Shown in pieces: positions 1,541-19,367 of a stretch of 64,000 nucleotides of DNA (positions are counted from its first letter, which is position 1; each line of letters starts with the position of its first letter). The stretch lies in assembly GCA_002841625.1 (NCBI GenBank), contig PHAG01000008.1, positions 124,001 to 188,000 on the forward strand, given 5' to 3'. The notes under the pieces were generated by a model, which saw only the letters and a program-made list of their open reading frames with translations, made no database searches and was not told where the DNA came from. The position numbers and the translations under genes are program-made. The DNA comes from Firmicutes bacterium HGW-Firmicutes-1. Lineage in GTDB: Bacteria > Bacillota > Clostridia > Lachnospirales > Vallitaleaceae.

Positions 1541-2881
1541 ATGAATACTTCTCAAGGAAATCAGCTAATACAAAATCAGCGCTTGACACTTACCCCTAAA
1601 ATGATAGAAGAACTGAAACTATTGCATATGTGTAGCATTGAATTATGCCAATATATTGGGGAGGTATTAAATGAAAATCCGCTACTAGAGAGTGATCAAA
1701 AGAATGATTGGATAGAAAAACATGCTGAATATTGTCGTCTAAACAATGAAAAGACATATGCGAATTTTAATGACGCTGATCAAGCTTCAATAGATTATAC
1801 TGAATATACGGAAGCGCCTATATCTCTAAGGCAGTATTTGATTTCACAGCTAGGTGAAATTAAGATAGATTGTTTATCCAGAAAGATTGCAGAGTATATT
1901 ATTCAATGCATAGATGATAAGGGTTATTTTGAAGAAAATCTTTCGGAAGTTGGAATATCAATAGGTGCACCCTTAAAAAGAGTTGTAAAAGCATTAAAGC
2001 TTGTTCAGAATTTAGAACCAGCAGGTATAGGTGCAAGAAATCTAAAAGAATGTTTGCTATTGCAGTTAAAAAGAAGAAATATAATGAATCCTGAATTGAA
2101 AATGATCATTGAAGGGCATCTTGATTTATTGGCTGAGCATCGCTATAAGGAGATTGCTAAAAGGATTTCTATTAAAGAAGAGCAGGTTATAAGTTTACAT
2201 CAAGTTTTAAGAGATTTAAATCCAAAGCCAGGAATACAATTTTCAGGGCATACAATGAACTATGTTATACCTGAGTTGATCGTTAATGAGAGAGATGGTA
2301 AATATATAGTAGAGTTTATTGATGAATTAGTTCCATTACTTAAAATTAACACCTTTTATAAAGGATTAATGAAAAGTACAGAGTGTGGCTCAGAGGAAAT
2401 GAACTATATTAAAACAAAAATTATGAAAGCCACCGAAATTATTCAAGCCATTGAACAAAGAAAAAAGACGATCTTGGCAACGGCAAATTTTATTGTTCAA
2501 TATCAGGAAGGTTTTTTTAGAAAGGGGTATTCTTATCTGAAGCCAATGACGATGAAAATGGTTTCGAGTAGTATGGGTGTTCATGAGTCAACAATTAGTA
2601 GAACTGTAAATCAAAAATATATACAAACGAGTAGAGGTATTTTTGAACTAAAGTTCTTTTTTTCTTCTAGTCTAGAGGCATCAGGAGGTCAAGATGTTTC
2701 ATCTACATCTGTGAAAGAGCTTATTAAGTTGCTGGTACTTGAAGAGAATAAAAAAACCCCCTTAAGTGACATGGATATTGTTACTAGGCTTAAAGAGAAG
2801 GGTATTCATATTGCAAGAAGAACTATATCAAAATATAGGGAAGAGCTTATGATTCCTTCTTCAAGTAAGCGGAAATTATAA
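1541..2881 (+). CDS. rpoN: RNA polymerase sigma-54 factor, copy 1
   Basis: A 446-residue sigma-54. The Gln/Leu-rich region I at the N-terminus (QNQRLTLTPKMIEELKLLHM) contacts activators and core. A core-binding region follows at about 80-280, then an HTH near 330-385 (MGVHESTISRTVNQKYIQT), and the RpoN box near the C-terminus, ARRTISKYREELMIPSS, which reads the -24 element. The family consensus is ARRTVAKYRE, so the box is intact. The start is supported by AGGTGGG upstream of ATG 1541. A second, divergent sigma-54 gene lies at 17988-19367. This copy has no sigma-54 activator next to it and is followed by the DUF2933-like and Met-rich genes. Confidence 0.95.
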   Translation: MNTSQGNQLIQNQRLTLTPKMIEELKLLHMCSIELCQYIGEVLNENPLLESDQKNDWIEKHAEYCRLNNEKTYANFNDADQASIDYTEYTEAPISLRQYLISQLGEIKIDCLSRKIAEYIIQCIDDKGYFEENLSEVGISIGAPLKRVVKALKLVQNLEPAGIGARNLKECLLLQLKRRNIMNPELKMIIEGHLDLLAEHRYKEIAKRISIKEEQVISLHQVLRDLNPKPGIQFSGHTMNYVIPELIVNERDGKYIVEFIDELVPLLKINTFYKGLMKSTECGSEEMNYIKTKIMKATEIIQAIEQRKKTILATANFIVQYQEGFFRKGYSYLKPMTMKMVSSSMGVHESTISRTVNQKYIQTSRGIFELKFFFSSSLEASGGQDVSSTSVKELIKLLVLEENKKTPLSDMDIVTRLKEKGIHIARRTISKYREELMIPSSSKRKL

Positions 2882-2996
2882 ATAAAAAATCAATGTTAAA
2901 ATGCATTATTATAAATATTTTGCTTATAATGAAATCTTCATAAAAACCACACAAATATTTCATATACTTGTCATAACAAAAATAGGAGGCAAAAAA

Positions 2997-3236
2997 ATGA
3001 ATAAACATTGTGCAGAAAACAAACTTCATAAGGTTTTAATGGTTCTCTGCTGTGCTATACCAATTATTATTTTAGGTGTACTATATTTAGGGAAGGTTCA
3101 AGGAACATCATGGGGAAGTATGTTAAGTTTTGCTGCAATATTATTATGCCCACTACTGCATTTGATAATGATGCCATTAATGATGAGACGTAATAAAAAA
3201 GAAAGTACGGGAGAAAATAACTCAAGCTGTCATTAG
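2997..3236 (+). CDS. DUF2933-like small membrane protein
   Basis: A 79-residue protein starting at ATG 2997, which has AGGAGG at proper spacing. The frame extends further upstream but has no ribosome binding site there. Two hydrophobic helices (about 12-30 and 40-60) enclose a short loop, and the second ends in LLCPLLHLIMMPLMM. That CPLxHLxMM pattern is what I recall for DUF2933 proteins, small membrane proteins often found near heavy-metal (copper) handling genes. The C-terminus is polar and ends in Cys-His. It opens the run toward the YVTN lipoprotein and the Met-rich cluster. Confidence 0.7.
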   Translation: MNKHCAENKLHKVLMVLCCAIPIIILGVLYLGKVQGTSWGSMLSFAAILLCPLLHLIMMPLMMRRNKKESTGENNSSCH

Positions 3237-3332: not shown

Positions 3333-4412
3333 ATGAAAAAAACAATTCTTGTGGTTGTTTTATTATTCACTATAATCTTGACCGTTGCTTGTTCTCCAAA
3401 ACAGACAAGCCCAAATTCAGAAACCCAACCAGAGGTTGAACCTGAAACAACGACTGAAGATGATATGGTAAAGGAAGATATGCCAGAGTATTTTGTATAT
3501 ACTGCAAATGAAGATGATGCAACAGTTTCTGTTATAAACATGGCAACCATGGAAACTACTACAACGATCTCAGTTGGTCAAGGACCTCATAATGTTCAAG
3601 TTTCACCAGATGGAAAGTATGTTTATGTGGCGGAGAATAAGGACAACACAGTTTCAGCCATAGATACATCTAACAATTCTGTAGTTAAAACAATAAGTGT
3701 AGGAGAAGGCCCTAGTCATGTCATTTTTTCACCAGATTCAAGCACTGCTTATGTGACTGTTAATGAAATGGCAGAAGATGAAACTGATTCAGATGATATG
3801 GATATGAAAACCACTGGAAATGTATACGTGATTAATGTCACAAGTGGTAATATTGAGACGAAAATCCCAGTTGGTTATATGCCTCATGGCTTAAGATTTT
3901 CATCTGATAATAAATATATTTTTGTAGCAAACAATGATTCCGATAATGTTTCTGTTATTGATGTAGCCACTAATCAAGTAACAAAAACAATTGAGGTCGG
4001 AAAGAAACCTGTGCAAGTTGCACCTACTCCAGACGGTAAATTTGTATTTGTATCCTTAAATGAGGATCATAGTGTTGCGGTTATTGATACGGCGACGTTG
4101 GAAGTAATTAAGACGATTCCTGTAGGCAAAAATCCTATACAACTATCTTCAACTCCAGATAGCAAATTTATTTATGTAGCAAATACAGAATCTGATAACA
4201 TAAGTGTTATTGATACAGCTACCCAATCCGTAATTAGTTTTATTCCGGCGGGAGATAAAGCACATGGAGTAGCTATTTCAAAAGATGGTAGTACAGTTTT
4301 TGTAACCAACACAGGTGCAAATAATATTACAGTAGTTGATACAGCAACAAACTCGGTTATTGATACTATTTCAGCAGGAAAAGCACCAAATGGCGTTACA
4401 ATAATGGAATAA
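3333..4412 (+). CDS. YVTN-repeat beta-propeller lipoprotein
   Basis: A 359-residue lipoprotein. A signal peptide ends in the lipobox LTVAC with Cys20 as lipidation site, then a short acidic linker to about 50. About seven repeats of roughly 40 residues follow, each with a V(Y/F)V(A/T)(N/E)xxxxxVxVID core and a PDGKYVYVAN-type turn. This is the YVTN/YncE beta-propeller family, extracellular scaffolds or ligand-binding surfaces without a common enzymatic activity. GGAGG precedes ATG 3333 and a hairpin terminator follows at 4470-4506. Its position before a Met-rich membrane operon suggests, but does not prove, a shared envelope role. Confidence 0.9.
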   Translation: MKKTILVVVLLFTIILTVACSPKQTSPNSETQPEVEPETTTEDDMVKEDMPEYFVYTANEDDATVSVINMATMETTTTISVGQGPHNVQVSPDGKYVYVAENKDNTVSAIDTSNNSVVKTISVGEGPSHVIFSPDSSTAYVTVNEMAEDETDSDDMDMKTTGNVYVINVTSGNIETKIPVGYMPHGLRFSSDNKYIFVANNDSDNVSVIDVATNQVTKTIEVGKKPVQVAPTPDGKFVFVSLNEDHSVAVIDTATLEVIKTIPVGKNPIQLSSTPDSKFIYVANTESDNISVIDTATQSVISFIPAGDKAHGVAISKDGSTVFVTNTGANNITVVDTATNSVIDTISAGKAPNGVTIME

Positions 4413-4469
4413 GTTAATTGCGAAAGCTTTATAGTAAGTCATCTCTTTCATATGATTTAACATAGACAT

Positions 4470-4506
4470 CCTGAATTTTAAGTTTCGAAATTCAGGGTGT
4501 TTTTTG
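4470..4506 (+). terminator. Terminator after the YVTN lipoprotein
   Basis: CCTGAATTT and AAATTCAGG form a 9-bp stem with a 9-nt loop, followed by GTGTTTTTT. Confidence 0.85.
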
Positions 4507-4670
4507 CGTTCTTTTATTGACAATAAGAAACCTACAGAAGTTGTTAGAAAACTGGTAAATTATAACAAAGGGTTTTTTATGAAAATAATCGTATATTTTT
4601 ATGTTTTATATATAACAATATAAGTGGGATTGAAATTATCCATACTGCTTTTATGATGGAGGGCACTAAG

Positions 4671-5813
4671 GTGAAGTTTTTAAAAGGGTTGTTTACTTTC
4701 TTTGTAATATTGGTTATTTTAGGAGGTTTAGTTTATATTGGTTACGCCGTTCTCGAGAGAGATATATTTCAATTACGTGTTGACACTACTCCAAACGCTC
4801 AGATGGAAGAAACGAATCAAGACAATATGAATATGAAAGGCATGGATAATTCGGCTCAAGAAAATGTTAAACCTGCATTACCAAATCCTTATGATGCGCA
4901 AAATAGGGAGAAAATGACTCAAGCTATAGGTATGATTGATCAGGCGTTAGAATTAATTACAATTGATCCTTATTCTAAAGCCACAATGCCTAGTTCAAAG
5001 GATTCAATGCAAATGGATAGTATGCAAGGACAAGAGCAAGGAAATGGTACAATCAATATCTATCCAAGTGATAACAGTTCAGTTAACATTGGACCGTCAG
5101 AAAACAATACGGATTCTGCAAATAACGAAGTAAACGCTACAGATGCTATGCAGGGAAATATGGACAGCATGACCATGAATCAAAGCAATAACTATGTTTA
5201 TGATCAAGGAAAACTACAACAGCTTCATAGTGGTATATTTACGATGGCACAAGGTGTCTTAGCAATAAATGAATTAAATGATGATCTTATTGAACAATCT
5301 ATGATGGTAGAAACAAATCCGTTAAGTTATCAAACCTATGTTTTAAGATATAGCACTGCTTTAAAGAATAAAACAAATTTAGAAAATGCTGTAGAAATGT
5401 TAAGCCAAGCCTCAGTGCTCATTAATATAAACCCTTATGCATCACAAAACGGATATGCTTATAACAATGATTCTATGAAGCAGCTTCATGAAGGCATTTA
5501 TAAACTGGCACAGGGTATGGCGTTGTTAAAAAGTTTAAATAATGATTTTACAACTCAAATGACATCAGCCACATTGCAAGCACAAAACATTGTATATAAT
5601 AATCAAATAAGTGTAGATGATATGGGGTATATGGGATATGGGATGTTTGAAAACATAAGTATATCTACAGTAATTAATTTAGTTATTATAGTTTTGGTGG
5701 CTGGATTAATTATAGGTATCTTAGGTGCAATATCAAGTTTATTTAAGAAAAACAAAAAAAATATAATTGTCAATCGAGATTATGAAGAGCACAGCCCTAC
5801 GGAAAGGGGATGA
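4671..5813 (+). CDS. Met-rich bitopic membrane protein with internal duplication
   Basis: A 380-residue protein. I choose GTG 4671 because GGAGGG lies eight bases before it. The in-frame ATG at 4653 precedes that site. One transmembrane helix lies at about 5-25 and another near 330-358. Between them is an outside domain with Met-rich linkers (MNMKGMD, DSMQMDSMQ, MDSMTMN). Two related units share the pattern A...QA..LI.I.PY ... QLH.GI..(M/L)AQG ... LN.D...Q, around residues 75-205 and 235-305. Methionine clusters of this MxM/MxxM type can bind Cu(I) or Ag(I); that is established for other copper proteins and only inferred here. No family recognised. It overlaps the next gene by 4 bp (ATGA). 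Confidence 0.8.
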   Translation: MKFLKGLFTFFVILVILGGLVYIGYAVLERDIFQLRVDTTPNAQMEETNQDNMNMKGMDNSAQENVKPALPNPYDAQNREKMTQAIGMIDQALELITIDPYSKATMPSSKDSMQMDSMQGQEQGNGTINIYPSDNSSVNIGPSENNTDSANNEVNATDAMQGNMDSMTMNQSNNYVYDQGKLQQLHSGIFTMAQGVLAINELNDDLIEQSMMVETNPLSYQTYVLRYSTALKNKTNLENAVEMLSQASVLININPYASQNGYAYNNDSMKQLHEGIYKLAQGMALLKSLNNDFTTQMTSATLQAQNIVYNNQISVDDMGYMGYGMFENISISTVINLVIIVLVAGLIIGILGAISSLFKKNKKNIIVNRDYEEHSPTERG

Positions 5814-6592
5814 AGCACATAATGAAAAATGATTGGATAATTAGAAACTTACTAAGCGTAATACTTGGAGCAATTGCATTTGGATTACTATTTAATATAT
5901 TTACAGGAGGTGGAAATGCTATGAACGAAAATATGATGGGAAATGGAATTGGATCATATGGAAATTCTATAAATGGATTTTTAGCTAGTTTACTTGTTTT
6001 ACTTGTGAAATTTCTTATGATTGTTCTTGTAATAGCAATCGTAGTTGGAGTTGTAATGTGGATTAAAAACAATTTATTTAAAGATACGCATATAAATATT
6101 TCTCAAGCAATCAATCACGATCCAATATTAAAAGCAATATTTGGTATTACAGTTGTTGTATTTGGTATTGTTCTTATAGGTTGGGTGTTTAACAATTTTG
6201 TTAATCCTAGTATGGGTTATGGTTATGGTATGGGGAATATGGATGGAAACAGTATGAATTATGCAAATGGACAAGGCATGATGAATGGATCAGGTATAAA
6301 TATGAATGGATTTAATACCACATTTGGCATAACAGGAGTTGTATCACTTTTAATTAAAGTATTATCCTATGTATTTATAATTTCTTTGATATTGGGTTTA
6401 GTTGCATATTTGAAGAAGCAATATGAAGCTGGAAGCTTTGATTTTCTAAAAGCAACGACTAATCAAGTTAATGCAGGTTCAGTTAATACAAGTCCAGTTG
6501 CATCAATCATTACGAACCCGAATATGGATCAAAAAACTGAACAAAAAATAGATCAAAAAACAGAAATAAAAACCGATCAAAAACCAAAATAA
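5810..6592 (+). CDS. Four-helix membrane protein with Gly/Asn/Met-rich loops
   Basis: A 260-residue product with four predicted transmembrane helices (about 13-31, 57-84, 105-128, 180-205). Two external loops are low complexity and Met-rich: NAMNENMMGNGIGSYGN, and a loop at about 137-167 beginning GYGYGMGNMDGNSMN. The C-terminus is polar and Gln/Lys-rich (DQKTEQKIDQKTE). The start overlaps the stop of the previous gene, so translation is probably coupled; ATG 5822 is an alternative start. The architecture looks like a duplicated two-helix unit with a loop in each half. No family recognised. Confidence 0.8.
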   Translation: MKHIMKNDWIIRNLLSVILGAIAFGLLFNIFTGGGNAMNENMMGNGIGSYGNSINGFLASLLVLLVKFLMIVLVIAIVVGVVMWIKNNLFKDTHINISQAINHDPILKAIFGITVVVFGIVLIGWVFNNFVNPSMGYGYGMGNMDGNSMNYANGQGMMNGSGINMNGFNTTFGITGVVSLLIKVLSYVFIISLILGLVAYLKKQYEAGSFDFLKATTNQVNAGSVNTSPVASIITNPNMDQKTEQKIDQKTEIKTDQKPK

Positions 6593-6626
6593 TAAAAAAT
6601 GATGGCACTGTAAGGGAGAATATAGG

Positions 6627-7145
6627 GTGAAAACAAGGTTTGACTTTATCATTCATTGGCTTTGGACAATTGTATTTGCCATATTAGCCGTTAGCGGTAT
6701 TGCAATGATAGGAGTAAAGTATGGTTGGATTTTAAATTATGATATTTCTTCAGCAGATTTAACACATCGTATAGTTGCGGCAGTATTTGTAATTCTTACA
6801 TCTATAACCATTGGTTATGAAGTAATACGTGGAATCAAGAATGATGAAAAAAAGTTAGCATGGTTGATTATCGGAAAAAGTGGATATCAACTCTTTACCT
6901 TTATAACAACCTTAATTTTTATTATTACAGGAGTGATAATTTGGGTGTGTATGGGTACAAATTCAAATATGTCAGCTATAGCTTTTTCACTATATATTCA
7001 CGAAAAGTTAACTTATGTTGTTGTTGCAAGTGTTATATGGCATATATATGAAAAATGCCATGCACTTACTTGGAATAAGAAGTTAGTTAAATGTAATTTG
7101 GTTAAAGAGAGGAAAAAGGACGATGATGCAAAAGGCATGGTTTAA
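6627..7145 (+). CDS. b-type cytochrome, cytochrome b561/formate dehydrogenase gamma-like
   Basis: A 172-residue protein with four transmembrane helices, starting at GTG 6627 after AAGGGAG. The first helix begins RFDFIIHWLWTIVF and continues to SGIAM, and the second begins LTHRIVAAVF. Both match the R..HW / L.HR pattern of b-type cytochrome membrane subunits, with H10 and H47 as likely haem ligands. H125 and H139 in the last helices could complete one or two sites. Such subunits pass electrons between quinone and an outside or inside partner. No partner oxidoreductase is visible; the neighbours are Met-rich membrane proteins. It overlaps the next gene by 23 bp. Confidence 0.8.
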   Translation: MKTRFDFIIHWLWTIVFAILAVSGIAMIGVKYGWILNYDISSADLTHRIVAAVFVILTSITIGYEVIRGIKNDEKKLAWLIIGKSGYQLFTFITTLIFIITGVIIWVCMGTNSNMSAIAFSLYIHEKLTYVVVASVIWHIYEKCHALTWNKKLVKCNLVKERKKDDDAKGMV

Positions 7146-7428
7146 AACATTTATATGGTTTGTTTCAACCGCCATGTTCTTCCTTATATCAAGCATTATA
7201 ATATCTGAGTTTAGTCCTGAACCATCTGAGCAAGAAGTAATGGCCTATATGGCTGGAATGATGCAAGCTATGGAAACGTCATTAATGGGACTTTCAATGA
7301 CTATTGAACAAGATGTAGAATTAAAACGCTTCATTTTAAACGCAACATCAATTACTTTCCCTCTTGTTTTTATAGGCATAGCAGGGGGTATTTTCATTAG
7401 AGTTACTAGGAGGAAAAATAGTGGTTAA
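7123..7428 (+). CDS. Small two-helix membrane protein
   Basis: A 101-residue protein starting at ATG 7123 or the adjacent ATG 7126 (AAGGA just upstream, inside the previous gene). Hydrophobic helices lie at about 8-27 and 75-93. The outside loop contains MAYMAGMMQAMETSLMGLSM, again unusually rich in Met. It overlaps both neighbours, so it belongs to the same translationally coupled operon. No family recognised. Confidence 0.75.
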   Translation: MMQKAWFKTFIWFVSTAMFFLISSIIISEFSPEPSEQEVMAYMAGMMQAMETSLMGLSMTIEQDVELKRFILNATSITFPLVFIGIAGGIFIRVTRRKNSG

Positions 7429-7798
7429 AAAAAAGTTGGCCTTTATAAAACTTTCAGCTTTCTTTGGAATGATAACTCTTTTAACTATATTTTTCTTATG
7501 GGGTAATAAATCTAGTACAACTTCACCTGCTAGTATGATGGGACAAAGTATGGGAGACATGATGAGTGGTGAGCATTTACAAGACATTACAGTCAGAGAG
7601 CTTATACTACAACAAGATCAAATAGAAGAATCTCAAGATATAGATTCACAAGCAAGTCATCATAGTTCCGAAGGATTTCTTAAAACAGCCCACTATTTAT
7701 CAACAGCAACGATAGTAATTTTGCTTCCATTTATACTAGCTGGAACGATCTTTCTAGCAATCATCTGGCTAAATACAAAATCGGAGGTAAAAAGGTGA
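7421..7798 (+). CDS. Small two-helix Met/His-containing membrane protein
   Basis: A 125-residue protein starting at GTG 7421, eight bases inside the preceding gene, with AGGAGG upstream. Helices lie at about 8-27 and 92-117, with an outside loop containing ASMMGQSMGDMMSGEH and a later SHH. It has the same two-helix plan and Met-cluster loop as the gene before it, suggesting an old duplication. Its stop overlaps the next start (GTGA). No family recognised. Confidence 0.75.
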   Translation: MVKKKLAFIKLSAFFGMITLLTIFFLWGNKSSTTSPASMMGQSMGDMMSGEHLQDITVRELILQQDQIEESQDIDSQASHHSSEGFLKTAHYLSTATIVILLPFILAGTIFLAIIWLNTKSEVKR

Positions 7799-8475
7799 AT
7801 TTAGGTAATGTTGGTTCTTTTTATATGGTATTTCTTATTTTACTTCTTATTGTAGGGTTGGGCATGTTAGCTATGGGCTTGATCACATATATGTTCAAAC
7901 CTATAAACAAAAAATCACTCAAAAATGAAGGAGGTAATTTTATGCAAAATAATAATTGGTTAAAGCTAGCGTTATTTTCATTTATAGGTATCATGATTTC
8001 AGTCATAATTTTAGGGTTTCTATCACCTAATGGCTTTACGGGAAGTAGTACATCAGGACACGGTGATATTCTATCGCAGCAGATGGGTAATATGAATAAT
8101 GCTTCAGGCGGAATGATGAATGGTAATGCTACTATTATGAATTCATCTGGAAATATGAGTGGGATGGGAACAATTGGTTATTCGCAAGCAGACAATAATG
8201 TAATGATGAACAATTTTTATCAGATGCAATTGCAAATTAACCAAATACAATTGCAAATAACTCAATTGCAACAAATGATGAATAGTACTGGAAGTATGCA
8301 AATGCAATCCTCACCTGCAAGTAATTCATCAGGTATGAGTGGAATGGGAATGATGAATATGGGAGGAATGTCTGGTGGAGGTACTGGAAGTACTATGACT
8401 ACAACAATGCCAGCATCGGCTCCAGCTCCAGATCCAGCTCCAGCAGGGGGCGGTATGAGTATGCCGATGATGTAG
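7795..8475 (+). CDS. Met/Gln/Gly-rich membrane protein, last gene of the cluster
   Basis: A 226-residue protein with two N-terminal transmembrane helices (about 8-30 and 56-74). A long outside tail of about 150 residues follows, full of Met, Asn, Gln and Gly. It contains a Gln/Ile heptad-like stretch (MQLQINQIQLQITQLQQM, probable coiled coil) and a terminal SGMGMMNMGGMSGGG segment with a short Pro-Ala run. An internal in-frame ATG at 7942 has its own GGAGG site, so a shorter form lacking the first helix may also be made. The tail could be a metal-binding or surface polymer. No family recognised. Confidence 0.75.
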   Translation: MNLGNVGSFYMVFLILLLIVGLGMLAMGLITYMFKPINKKSLKNEGGNFMQNNNWLKLALFSFIGIMISVIILGFLSPNGFTGSSTSGHGDILSQQMGNMNNASGGMMNGNATIMNSSGNMSGMGTIGYSQADNNVMMNNFYQMQLQINQIQLQITQLQQMMNSTGSMQMQSSPASNSSGMSGMGMMNMGGMSGGGTGSTMTTTMPASAPAPDPAPAGGGMSMPMM

Positions 8476-17987: not shown

Positions 17988-19367
17988 TTGGACTTAGAAA
18001 TGAATATGAATCTTGCTCAAGAACAGAGACTACTAATGACTCCACAGCTTGAATACTCGCTGAAAATACTGAAAATGAATAACGAAGAACTACTTGAACT
18101 TATTGATGAAGAGGTTCAAGCTAATCCAATACTTGAATACGCGGAGAATACTTCAAAGCCAAGTCGAAACATGAAAGATTCAATCAAAGATACAAGCTAC
18201 TATGATGAATATGGGACAGCCAACTTTAATGAAGAGAATGATGAATTTAACTATATAAATTCTATACCGGATGCTTCAAGCTTAAAACCAAGCTTGGTGC
18301 AACATCTTTTGCTCCAACTTCATACAGAAAAGATTTCCGGCATAATGATGGAATTATGTGAATTTATCATTGAAAGTATTGATTCAAACGGATATTTTAC
18401 CATGAATGAAAAAGAAATAAAACAAGTGATTCCTAGTACTTCTAAAGAGATTTTGAGAGCAATTGAGTTGGTTCAAAGCTTTGATCCTCCAGGAGTGGGT
18501 GCAAGAAATCTTAAGGAATGTTTACTGCTTCAAATTGTAAGGAATAATATGAAGGATAGAAATCTAATTATAATGGTAGATAACTATCTAGAAGATATTG
18601 CAGCGAATAGAATCCCTTATTTATCTCAAGTATTAGGACTAGAAATTCCACGGATAAATCAGTTAATTGCTATGATTAAAGGTTTGGATCCTAAACCCGG
18701 AAGCAGATTTTCTTTAGAAATAGCTAGATATATTAAACCAGATGTTGTAGTATGCAAAAATGATGATCAGTTTGAAGTAATGATAAATAAAGAACAGCTT
18801 CCGAATCTTAATGTCAGTACATATTACAGTGGTCTATTAACAAATAGAAAACAGCTTAATTCTGAAGAATATAGTTATATAAATAAAAACTATACTAGCG
18901 CTACATGGTTGATGCGTTGCATAGAGCAACGATTGAATACATTAGAGAGAGTAACTTCTGCTATAGTGCTTCATCAAATTGCATTTTTTGAATTTGGGAA
19001 AAAGCATTTGATGCCTTTGACATTAAAAGAAATTGCTTATGAGCTCGATATTCATGAATCAACAGTAAGTAGGGCCGTCAATGAAAAATATCTATTGTGT
19101 CAATGGGGAGTATATGAACTAAAATATTTCTTTTCTAGTAAAACAATTAGAGCGGCAAATGGCGAGGATGTCTCTTCATCAAATGCAAAGCTTGTTTTGA
19201 AAGAAATCATTGATGAGGAGGATAAATCGAATCCTCTAAGTGATACAACAATATGTAAAATTTTACAAGAAAAAGATATCTTTATTTCTAGAAGAACAGT
19301 TGCAAAATATCGAGCTCAACTTAAGATTCCAACGATGGACTTAAGAAAACATTTTAATAATGGGTAA
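17988..19367 (+). CDS. rpoN: RNA polymerase sigma-54 factor, copy 2
   Basis: A 459-residue sigma-54, with TTG 17988 chosen for GAGGTGAT upstream. Region I is Leu/Gln-rich (LAQEQRLLMTPQLEYSLKIL), followed by an acidic stretch (60-90). The core-binding region holds FDPPGVGARNLKECLLLQ and LDPKPGSRFS. The HTH is near 345-375 (LDIHESTVSRAVNEKYLL), and the RpoN box SRRTVAKYRAQLKIP is near the end. It is about 30-40% like copy 1 by eye. It sits immediately before an HPr-domain activator and a dha operon with perfect sigma-54 promoters, so dedication to that regulon is a reasonable inference. Confidence 0.95.
   Translation: MDLEMNMNLAQEQRLLMTPQLEYSLKILKMNNEELLELIDEEVQANPILEYAENTSKPSRNMKDSIKDTSYYDEYGTANFNEENDEFNYINSIPDASSLKPSLVQHLLLQLHTEKISGIMMELCEFIIESIDSNGYFTMNEKEIKQVIPSTSKEILRAIELVQSFDPPGVGARNLKECLLLQIVRNNMKDRNLIIMVDNYLEDIAANRIPYLSQVLGLEIPRINQLIAMIKGLDPKPGSRFSLEIARYIKPDVVVCKNDDQFEVMINKEQLPNLNVSTYYSGLLTNRKQLNSEEYSYINKNYTSATWLMRCIEQRLNTLERVTSAIVLHQIAFFEFGKKHLMPLTLKEIAYELDIHESTVSRAVNEKYLLCQWGVYELKYFFSSKTIRAANGEDVSSSNAKLVLKEIIDEEDKSNPLSDTTICKILQEKDIFISRRTVAKYRAQLKIPTMDLRKHFNNG

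Follow-up and report, generated by a model that had tools for sequence, protein, structure and literature searches.

The operon described here, A-F, occupies positions 4671-8475 of a 64,000-nucleotide stretch of contig PHAG01000008.1 from Firmicutes bacterium HGW-Firmicutes-1; this whole stretch is called the window. Its six genes are conserved as a unit, and we lean, with modest confidence, toward the reading that their products form a membrane-bound relay for Cu(I) at the outer face, with a built-in transmembrane electron carrier. The copper half of this reading derives from a fusion of CopA with the product of gene A, from the neighbors of the operon in relatives and from conserved methionines, while the electron half derives from the heme pattern of C and from chemistry. 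Such a unit would link a transmembrane cytochrome with copper handling at the outer face, and it defines at least five unnamed protein families. A first-pass annotation of this DNA knew of no described system with this gene order. In agreement with it, we found no such system described in a full-text literature search whose coverage left out most subscription journals and whose result lists were in some cases limited to their best-ranked part.

Gene organization and conservation of the operon

The six genes lie on the forward (+) strand. Gene A (4671-5813) encodes a protein with a predicted transmembrane (TM) helix at each end and a large outer domain. The GTG at 4671 chosen in a first-pass annotation of this DNA, with GGAGGG 7 nt upstream, is a better start for this gene than the ATG at 4653, which is the one listed mechanically. 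The outer part of A combines a Met/Asn-rich linker with a predicted four-helix part; in the structural model (mean pLDDT 57.7), which is poor outside the helices, these span residues 79-103, 185-221, 226-257 and 272-319, numbered from the 4653 start. Gene B (5810-6592) encodes a protein with four TM helices and two outer loops rich in Met, Gly, Asn and Tyr. Some of its homologs have a C-terminal zinc-ribbon-like CxxC domain, and its paralog in the HGW-Firmicutes-1 genome has zinc-ribbon matches below cut-off. Gene C (6627-7145) encodes a putative b-type cytochrome resembling FdnI and HyaC. D (7123-7428) and E (7421-7798) have two TM helices each, with Met at positions 43, 46, 47, 50, 55 and 59 of the outer loop of D and the arrangement MxxxMGxxM ... 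HH in the outer loop of E. F (7795-8475) has two TM helices and a Met/Gly-rich outer C-terminal tail of 150 residues. A and B overlap by 4 nt, B and C are separated by a gap of 34 nt, and C/D, D/E and E/F overlap by 23, 8 and 4 nt. The reading frames and tight junctions of the first-pass annotation were thereby reproduced exactly.

A terminator-like hairpin at 4464-4502 (+), between the gene of a YVTN protein and A, weakly hints that A-F is a separate transcript; four terminator-like sites were found in the region against 2.7 expected. Promoter-like sites were fewer than in shuffled sequences (22 against 34.5) and were not used. No common regulator site was established upstream of A, shared 10-mers being the only method applied.

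Comparison of A, B, D, E and F with Pfam and NCBIfam gave no family over cut-off. The best Pfam match of B was WLS-like_TM (21.9 bits against a cut-off of 28.3), and a scan of 13 homologs each of A, D and E returned scattered weak matches to unrelated families. The annotation had held that a match to a named family with another role would speak against it; according to the Pfam, NCBIfam and homolog scans, only C among the six products resembles such a family.

The unit was found in 26 copies in 18 genomes (loci are labeled L and genomes G below), a pooled count that leaves out the duplicate loci L006, L019, L070 and L071. All six genes are present in the order A-F on one strand in 20 of these copies. 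Among the incomplete ones, L011_826, L065_677 and L077 are truncated where the available sequence starts, L073 and L076 are without B, and L011_10817 consists of A followed by C, with no B, before the sequence ends. The six genes stay together, as had been asked of them, and in the genomes found through C the order is kept to the limits of the available sequence, B being absent from three copies. The expectation that homologs do not occur scattered has to be qualified for B and F, since B-like/F-like satellite pairs also exist. As judged from these gene orders, the set is no chance grouping.

The HGW-Firmicutes-1 genome has a second full copy of the operon (C8:110626-114511), whose end lies 9.5 kb ahead of the window and about 14 kb ahead of gene A in the window copy. 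In the tree of C, on which two types were defined, type 1 comprises 11 rows (support 96/98) and includes the window copy, and type 2 comprises 8 rows (support 97/92) and includes the second copy. Both types occur together in six genomes, namely HGW-Firmicutes-1, SKW257, SKW182, Pseudobacteroides, G591 and G444. The nearest row was of the same type for 19/19 copies of C, 18/18 of D, 18/18 of E and 16/16 of A, and the distance matrices of A, C, D and E were concordant (r 0.84 to 0.92 over 21 copies, values that none of 2000 permutations reached). Since the two types agree across A, C, D and E, the data fit an ancient duplication of the whole operon with retention of both forms.

Carriers are rare and scattered. 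A search with A among 116 relatives located the operon only in the HGW-Firmicutes-1 genome and in G068, and G001, which belongs to the same genus, had no match to A or E. Profile searches were confined to the phylum of the organism. The E profile gave real matches in HGW-Firmicutes-1, G068 and G197 among 295 genomes of the order; weak matches in G011 and G239 (E ~7e-4, open frames of ~560 amino acids) were judged unrelated. At E up to 1e-15, the C profile matched five of 391 genomes of the class and eight of 398 of the phylum, the HGW-Firmicutes-1 genome being counted in both. Two C peptide patterns, of a kind that would miss more distant relatives, were compared with contigs of 84,980 species and identified eight loci. 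These belong to seven genomes, whose titles name Clostridia or Bacillota bacteria, Geosporobacter ferrireducens or Pseudobacteroides cellulosolvens. Patterns from A alone, taken mostly from its variable Met-rich stretches, found no relative in the same collection.

Copper context, conserved residues and the cytochrome

In L011, a metagenome assembly, a single open reading frame (ORF) of 1087 amino acids joins the C-terminus of CopA to the TM segment and outer domain of A. The isolate Pseudobacteroides has the same CopA-A arrangement, but its frame is broken. This fusion provides a concrete docking hypothesis. The surroundings of 25 copies (one near-identical copy was dropped) were analyzed within 12 kb for copper markers, namely CopA, CopZ, HMA-DsbD_2-cupredoxin, multicopper oxidase (MCO) and DUF326 proteins, with homologies taken from tblastn. 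HMA matches that fell in CopA were set aside, and HMA_DsbD2 matches in L009 (within the HMA domains of CopA) and L067 (partial) were not counted. At least one copper gene was present near 19 of the 25 copies, as a raw count. CopA was found near 10 copies, an MCO or its remnant near 11 and a response regulator, OmpR-like by eye, near 13; a DUF326 protein adjoins the operon in three genomes. The MCO genes of L012, L065 and L067 follow F by 168, 66 and 4 nt, and their products have all four copper motifs (HWHG, WYHSH, HPMHLHG and HCHELHH) and a hydrophobic N-terminus that by eye resembles a membrane anchor. Behind F of the second HGW-Firmicutes-1 copy there is a 39-residue remnant of an MCO C-terminus with a stop (about 6690-6820 of L007; G000:C8:114692-114820), Pseudobacteroides has a 71-residue MCO remnant in the same place, and another near F in L066 was recognized by eye and is tentative.

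The CopA gene of HGW-Firmicutes-1 itself lies beside genes for an HMA protein and a CsoR-like ORF, both recognized by eye, and next to a histidine kinase gene whose product shares 52% identity with the kinase linked to the operon in Geosporobacter. The models nearest to the latter kinase, all below their cut-offs, include BaeS and the heavy-metal CopS among others. Copper ATPases near the copies of relatives, for which the annotation had proposed to look, were thus found. The copper link that it drew from the Met clusters is borne out by the CopA, CopZ, MCO and DUF326 genes near relatives and by the CopA-A fusion, but not by the neighbors of the window copy. As a link that comes from genomic context, it is partly supported.

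The Met-rich stretches of A, B, D, E and F were placed outside the membrane by simple hydropathy and the positive-inside rule. Met accounts for 24 of 308 residues in the outer stretch of A, 3 of 28 and 7 of 52 in the two of B, 7 of 46 in D, 5 of 70 in E and 26 of 150 in F. The Met contents of the whole proteins, from A to F, are 6.7, 5.8, 2.3, 9.9, 4.8 and 14.2%. Compared with a yardstick of 193 mechanically chosen ORFs of at least 120 amino acids, drawn from the greater part of the same contig (mean 3.1%, standard deviation 1.3, 99th percentile 8.6, maximum 11.2), the values of D and F stand out as extreme and those of A and B as high, whereas E is slightly raised and C is ordinary. Both the hydropathy and the Met counts agree with the description of five membrane proteins with Met-rich outer loops, with E only slightly enriched; in E, conservation lies in the positions.

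Conservation by position was assessed in 22 to 25 copies, one near-identical copy having been dropped. Each of the six outer-loop Met residues of D is present in between 22 and 24 of the 24 copies. In E, M40 is kept in 23, M44 and M48 in 24, and H80 and H81 in 22 of 24. At a level of 90%, conservation was reached in D by 7 of 10 Met (including the start Met) against 9 of 91 other positions (Fisher p 6e-5), and in E by 5 of 10 Met and His against 12 of 115 (p 0.004), where the p values serve as guides only, the sequences being related. None of the 26 Met of A reaches 90%; H192, kept in 22/22 copies, is the sole residue among its Met and His that does. The conservation of Met that the annotation had asked for therefore holds for the key Met of D and E, together with His in E, and does not hold by position for A. 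D and E fit conserved Met/His clusters on the outer side; A does not, when judged by position.

Against Pfam Ni_hydr_CYTB (PF01292), C of the window scored 29.5 bits (E 7.9e-7), just below the cut-off of 30.1, and its homolog in L069 scored 39.0 bits, above it. The C profile matches FdnI, the cytochrome subunit of formate dehydrogenase N (PDB 1kqf_C, E 2.4e-5), and H10, H47, H125 and H139 of C align with FdnI H18, H57, H155 and H169, which we take to be heme ligands. In the pooled alignment H47, H125 and H139 are kept in 25/25 copies and H10 in 23/25, and both HGW-Firmicutes-1 copies retain all four. An AlphaFold model of C (mean pLDDT 72) had as its best Foldseek matches the hydrogenase-1 cytochrome b HyaC (6g94_B, E 0.018; 4gd3_A, E 0.023), which are weak. 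Identity with the copper resistance proteins CopD or YcnJ was rejected (PF05425, E 0.29, 12.0 against 32.1 bits). The cytochrome subunit with paired His proposed by the annotation is consistent with these findings, as C is FdnI/HyaC-like with four His at heme-ligand places and can be regarded as a putative heme b cytochrome.

In Geosporobacter, Pseudobacteroides, G068 and G699 the operon has genes of the NirJ1, NirJ2, AhbA and AhbB types next to it; G197 shows part of this set, at its contig end. In PMC3942049, AhbA-D are described as the siroheme route to heme, and NirJ1 and NirJ2 are named there the opposite way to NCBIfam, whose NirJ2 is nearer to AhbD. NirJ2 exceeded the cut-off in 6 of 14 carriers against 2 of 245 genomes of the class (Fisher p 2e-7), a comparison that is biased, as only one of the six positives belongs to the class and the carriers G000, G422, G444 and G445 are themselves among the 245. 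Inside the class, one of seven carriers (G068) was positive, and the match of G197 is broken near the contig end. The enrichment of NirJ2 in carriers is only suggestive.

Mechanism and alternative readings

In the relay toward which we lean, CopA would pump Cu(I) out, and the helical domain of A would take it up at the outer face. D and E, through their Met/His sites, and B and F, through their Met-rich segments, would hand the Cu(I) along. C would move electrons across the membrane to the copper sites, most likely holding copper as Cu(I) (cupric reductase activity). This would allow the reduced copper to be stored or returned, or to reach a partner, for example the MCO behind F in some relatives. 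A physical complex, Cu(I) binding, the use made of copper, the direction of the electrons and the occupancy of C by heme in HGW-Firmicutes-1 are parts of this scheme that we infer. The annotation had suggested metal capture, reduction or an envelope electron path; context supports the copper part, and a quinone-linked path is unsupported here.

The scheme has points in common with several known systems. C shares its family and the four heme His places with the FdnI/HyaC-type b cytochromes, but the operon instead has five Met-rich membrane proteins, and in the loci read no genes for a formate dehydrogenase or a hydrogenase were seen next to it by eye, no search having been made. The role proposed for A-F, a membrane protein giving electrons to copper, resembles those of CrpH and of the cupric reductase CcoG. 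CrpH (PepSY_TM) is described in PMC13038864 as a heme-containing membrane protein that supports copper use for heme-copper oxidoreductases; PepSY_TM is absent from the Pfam matches of A-F at E up to 1, a difference from CrpH. PMC13344008 discusses whether Bacillus subtilis may need a cupric reductase in its membrane and gives CcoG as being without a homolog in Firmicutes. The operons of relatives share MCO, CopA and CopZ neighbors with CueO/PcoA-type MCO systems that include CopA, but the window copy is without an MCO and A-F belongs to no described system of this type among those that the literature search listed. A shares predicted helices with the Csp copper-storage proteins (DUF326), whose bundles are thiolate-lined (PMC10155185); A has no Cys and no DUF326 match, and its identification as a Csp was rejected.

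Several results weigh against the relay. The copper-neighbor figure is a raw count, and six of the 25 copies are without an intact copper marker within 12 kb: the second HGW-Firmicutes-1 copy (MCO remnant only), the window copy, L069, L076, and L073 and L077, whose sequences span only ~7 kb. No copper gene lies near the window copy, which of the marker set has only DUF2933 and YVTN beside it, and CopA of the same genome is on a different contig (C11). A fold search with A against the PDB returned nothing below E 0.1 and no convincing match. NirJ2 gave no match over cut-off in the HGW-Firmicutes-1 genome (best 77.8 bits); AhbD was not itself searched, though it would be expected to score with the NirJ2 model. 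Ferrochelatase was over cut-off in none of eight genomes (HGW-Firmicutes-1, six other carriers and one non-carrier), with a weak match in G699. As for menaquinone, menD was over cut-off in none of the 14 carriers, HGW-Firmicutes-1 included. PF02621, of the futalosine route, exceeded a lenient cut-off of 26 bits in 7 of 14, with 231-260 bits in five, all outside the class, 30.4 bits in HGW-Firmicutes-1 and 30 bits in G197. Since convincing heme and menaquinone markers are lacking in HGW-Firmicutes-1, its heme would have to be imported or made by a route outside those tested, and for this organism neither a menaquinone path nor another quinone-linked one finds support. That a cytochrome b is conserved in genomes lacking the tested heme-synthesis markers is a puzzle of its own, and a testable one.

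The same components could be put to other uses. In one arrangement a cytochrome b would be wired to a chain of Met-bound copper formed by the five unnamed membrane protein families, joined in relatives by a His-His microprotein of 30-38 residues. Electrons would move between the cell and either copper, an outer MCO or an outside acceptor, with copper acting as the wire. We regard this as unlikely; if true, it would be a new kind of redox machine. A copper-linked oxidase or O2 scavenger, in which electrons from inside would pass through C to Met-bound copper and from there to an MCO that converts O2 to water, is quite unlikely. The intact MCO genes directly behind F in L012, L065 and L067, the MCO or remnant within 12 kb of 11 copies and the NirJ/Ahb genes adjoining the operon in G068, G197, Geosporobacter, Pseudobacteroides and G699 would suit it. 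However, no intact MCO lies directly behind a type 1 F in the loci read, window included, and in the HGW-Firmicutes-1 genome and Pseudobacteroides the MCO has decayed while the operon has been retained. Reversal of the electron flow is just about as improbable. Electrons from Cu(I) would then enter C and go inward, so that toxic Cu(I) would be converted to Cu(II) without O2. C shares the heme pattern of FdnI, in which electrons run from the outer side inward, and CopA/CopZ and DUF326 neighbors fit detoxification. Against this stand the lack of a convincing menaquinone marker in HGW-Firmicutes-1 and the energetics, as a high potential is to be expected for Met-bound Cu(I), and electron transfer from it to low-potential acceptors would be uphill.

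There is a small chance that A-F is a sponge or delivery scaffold for Cu(I) in which C is structural only, or in which its His bind copper rather than heme. No NirJ2 match over 130 bits and no ferrochelatase match was found in HGW-Firmicutes-1 (99% complete) or in G591, G444, G422 and G445 (80, 100, 88 and 61%), and the retention of the His of C is as this idea would have it; but their four-His pattern is that of a heme site, and other carriers have NirJ2 over cut-off (the six of 14 mentioned above) or heme-synthesis genes beside the operon. We give equally little credence to a function unrelated to copper, in which the Met stretches would be low-complexity surface sequence and C would carry out extracellular electron transfer, for example to iron. 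The conservation of Met and His of D and E by position goes beyond composition and, together with the copper neighbors and the CopA fusion, argues for copper, although the loops are compositionally simple, FtrD-like genes lie near 9 of the 25 copies, and Geosporobacter ferrireducens is named for iron reduction. The outer-face Cu(I) relay with C as its electron carrier is the reading that we prefer to these.

Neighboring genes and further observations

Two genes precede the operon in the window. A DUF2933-like small membrane protein (2991-3236, +) is just over the Pfam cut-off (PF11666, E 2e-4, 21.8 against 21 bits), and its relatives occur in L009 and L012, either between the operons or next to them. 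A YVTN beta-propeller lipoprotein (3333-4412, +) is a clear match to NCBIfam TIGR02276 (E 3.8e-74), with a lipobox recognized by eye, and has relatives adjoining the operon in G068, G197, G444 and G422. Both identifications had been made in the first-pass annotation and were confirmed. Matches of the YVTN protein to L-NosZ and hydrazine-synthase models were far below cut-offs.

The microprotein of 30-38 residues has a single TM segment, ends in [IV]HH[MLA] plus a few residues and is preceded by a good Shine-Dalgarno sequence. It is located before A or near B-like/F-like satellites in SKW257, Geosporobacter, L014, Pseudobacteroides, L016, L074/L075 and L076, with a YHL variant in L072. Its positions are 3035-3130 and 7765-7878 in L009, 7755-7850 and 14288-14434 in L012 (the latter listed from an upstream start), 7736-7843 in L013, 1653-1745 in L014, 4098-4199 in L015, 13858-13950 in L016, 8879-8980 in L074 and 16113-16205 in L076. 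The one microprotein scanned against Pfam had no match. The window copy is without it, and a broken stretch before A of the second HGW-Firmicutes-1 copy looks by eye like a remnant.

Satellite pairs of B-like and F-like genes stand beside a full operon in L007 (11085-11886) and also in L011, L014, L016, L067, L069, L074 and L076; those of L007 and L067 are accompanied by an NtrY/NtrC-like pair. Two ORFs of the window (1541-2881 and 17988-19367) are by eye of the RpoN (sigma-54) type, and an ORF near the operon in L009 is 45% identical to the first of them. Six loci (L009 14996-16138, L013 12427-13572, L016 4231-5415, L065 5340-6482, L066 11285-12427 and L074 15680-16840) have an actin-like gene (Pfam ALP_N) within ~4 kb of the operon, with 62-80% identity to the one in L013; such a gene was not found in contig C8 of HGW-Firmicutes-1, of which all but the last 0.7 kb was examined.

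Of the FtrABCD/FetMP systems, a neighbor of the operon has the FtrD-like domain (PF10080), which was the only part identified; FTR1 was not searched. The FtrD-like relatives within 12 kb include those at 15451-16074 of L006, 2203-2712 of L012 and 18817-19326 of L013, and they hint at a possible iron-sulfur or iron link.

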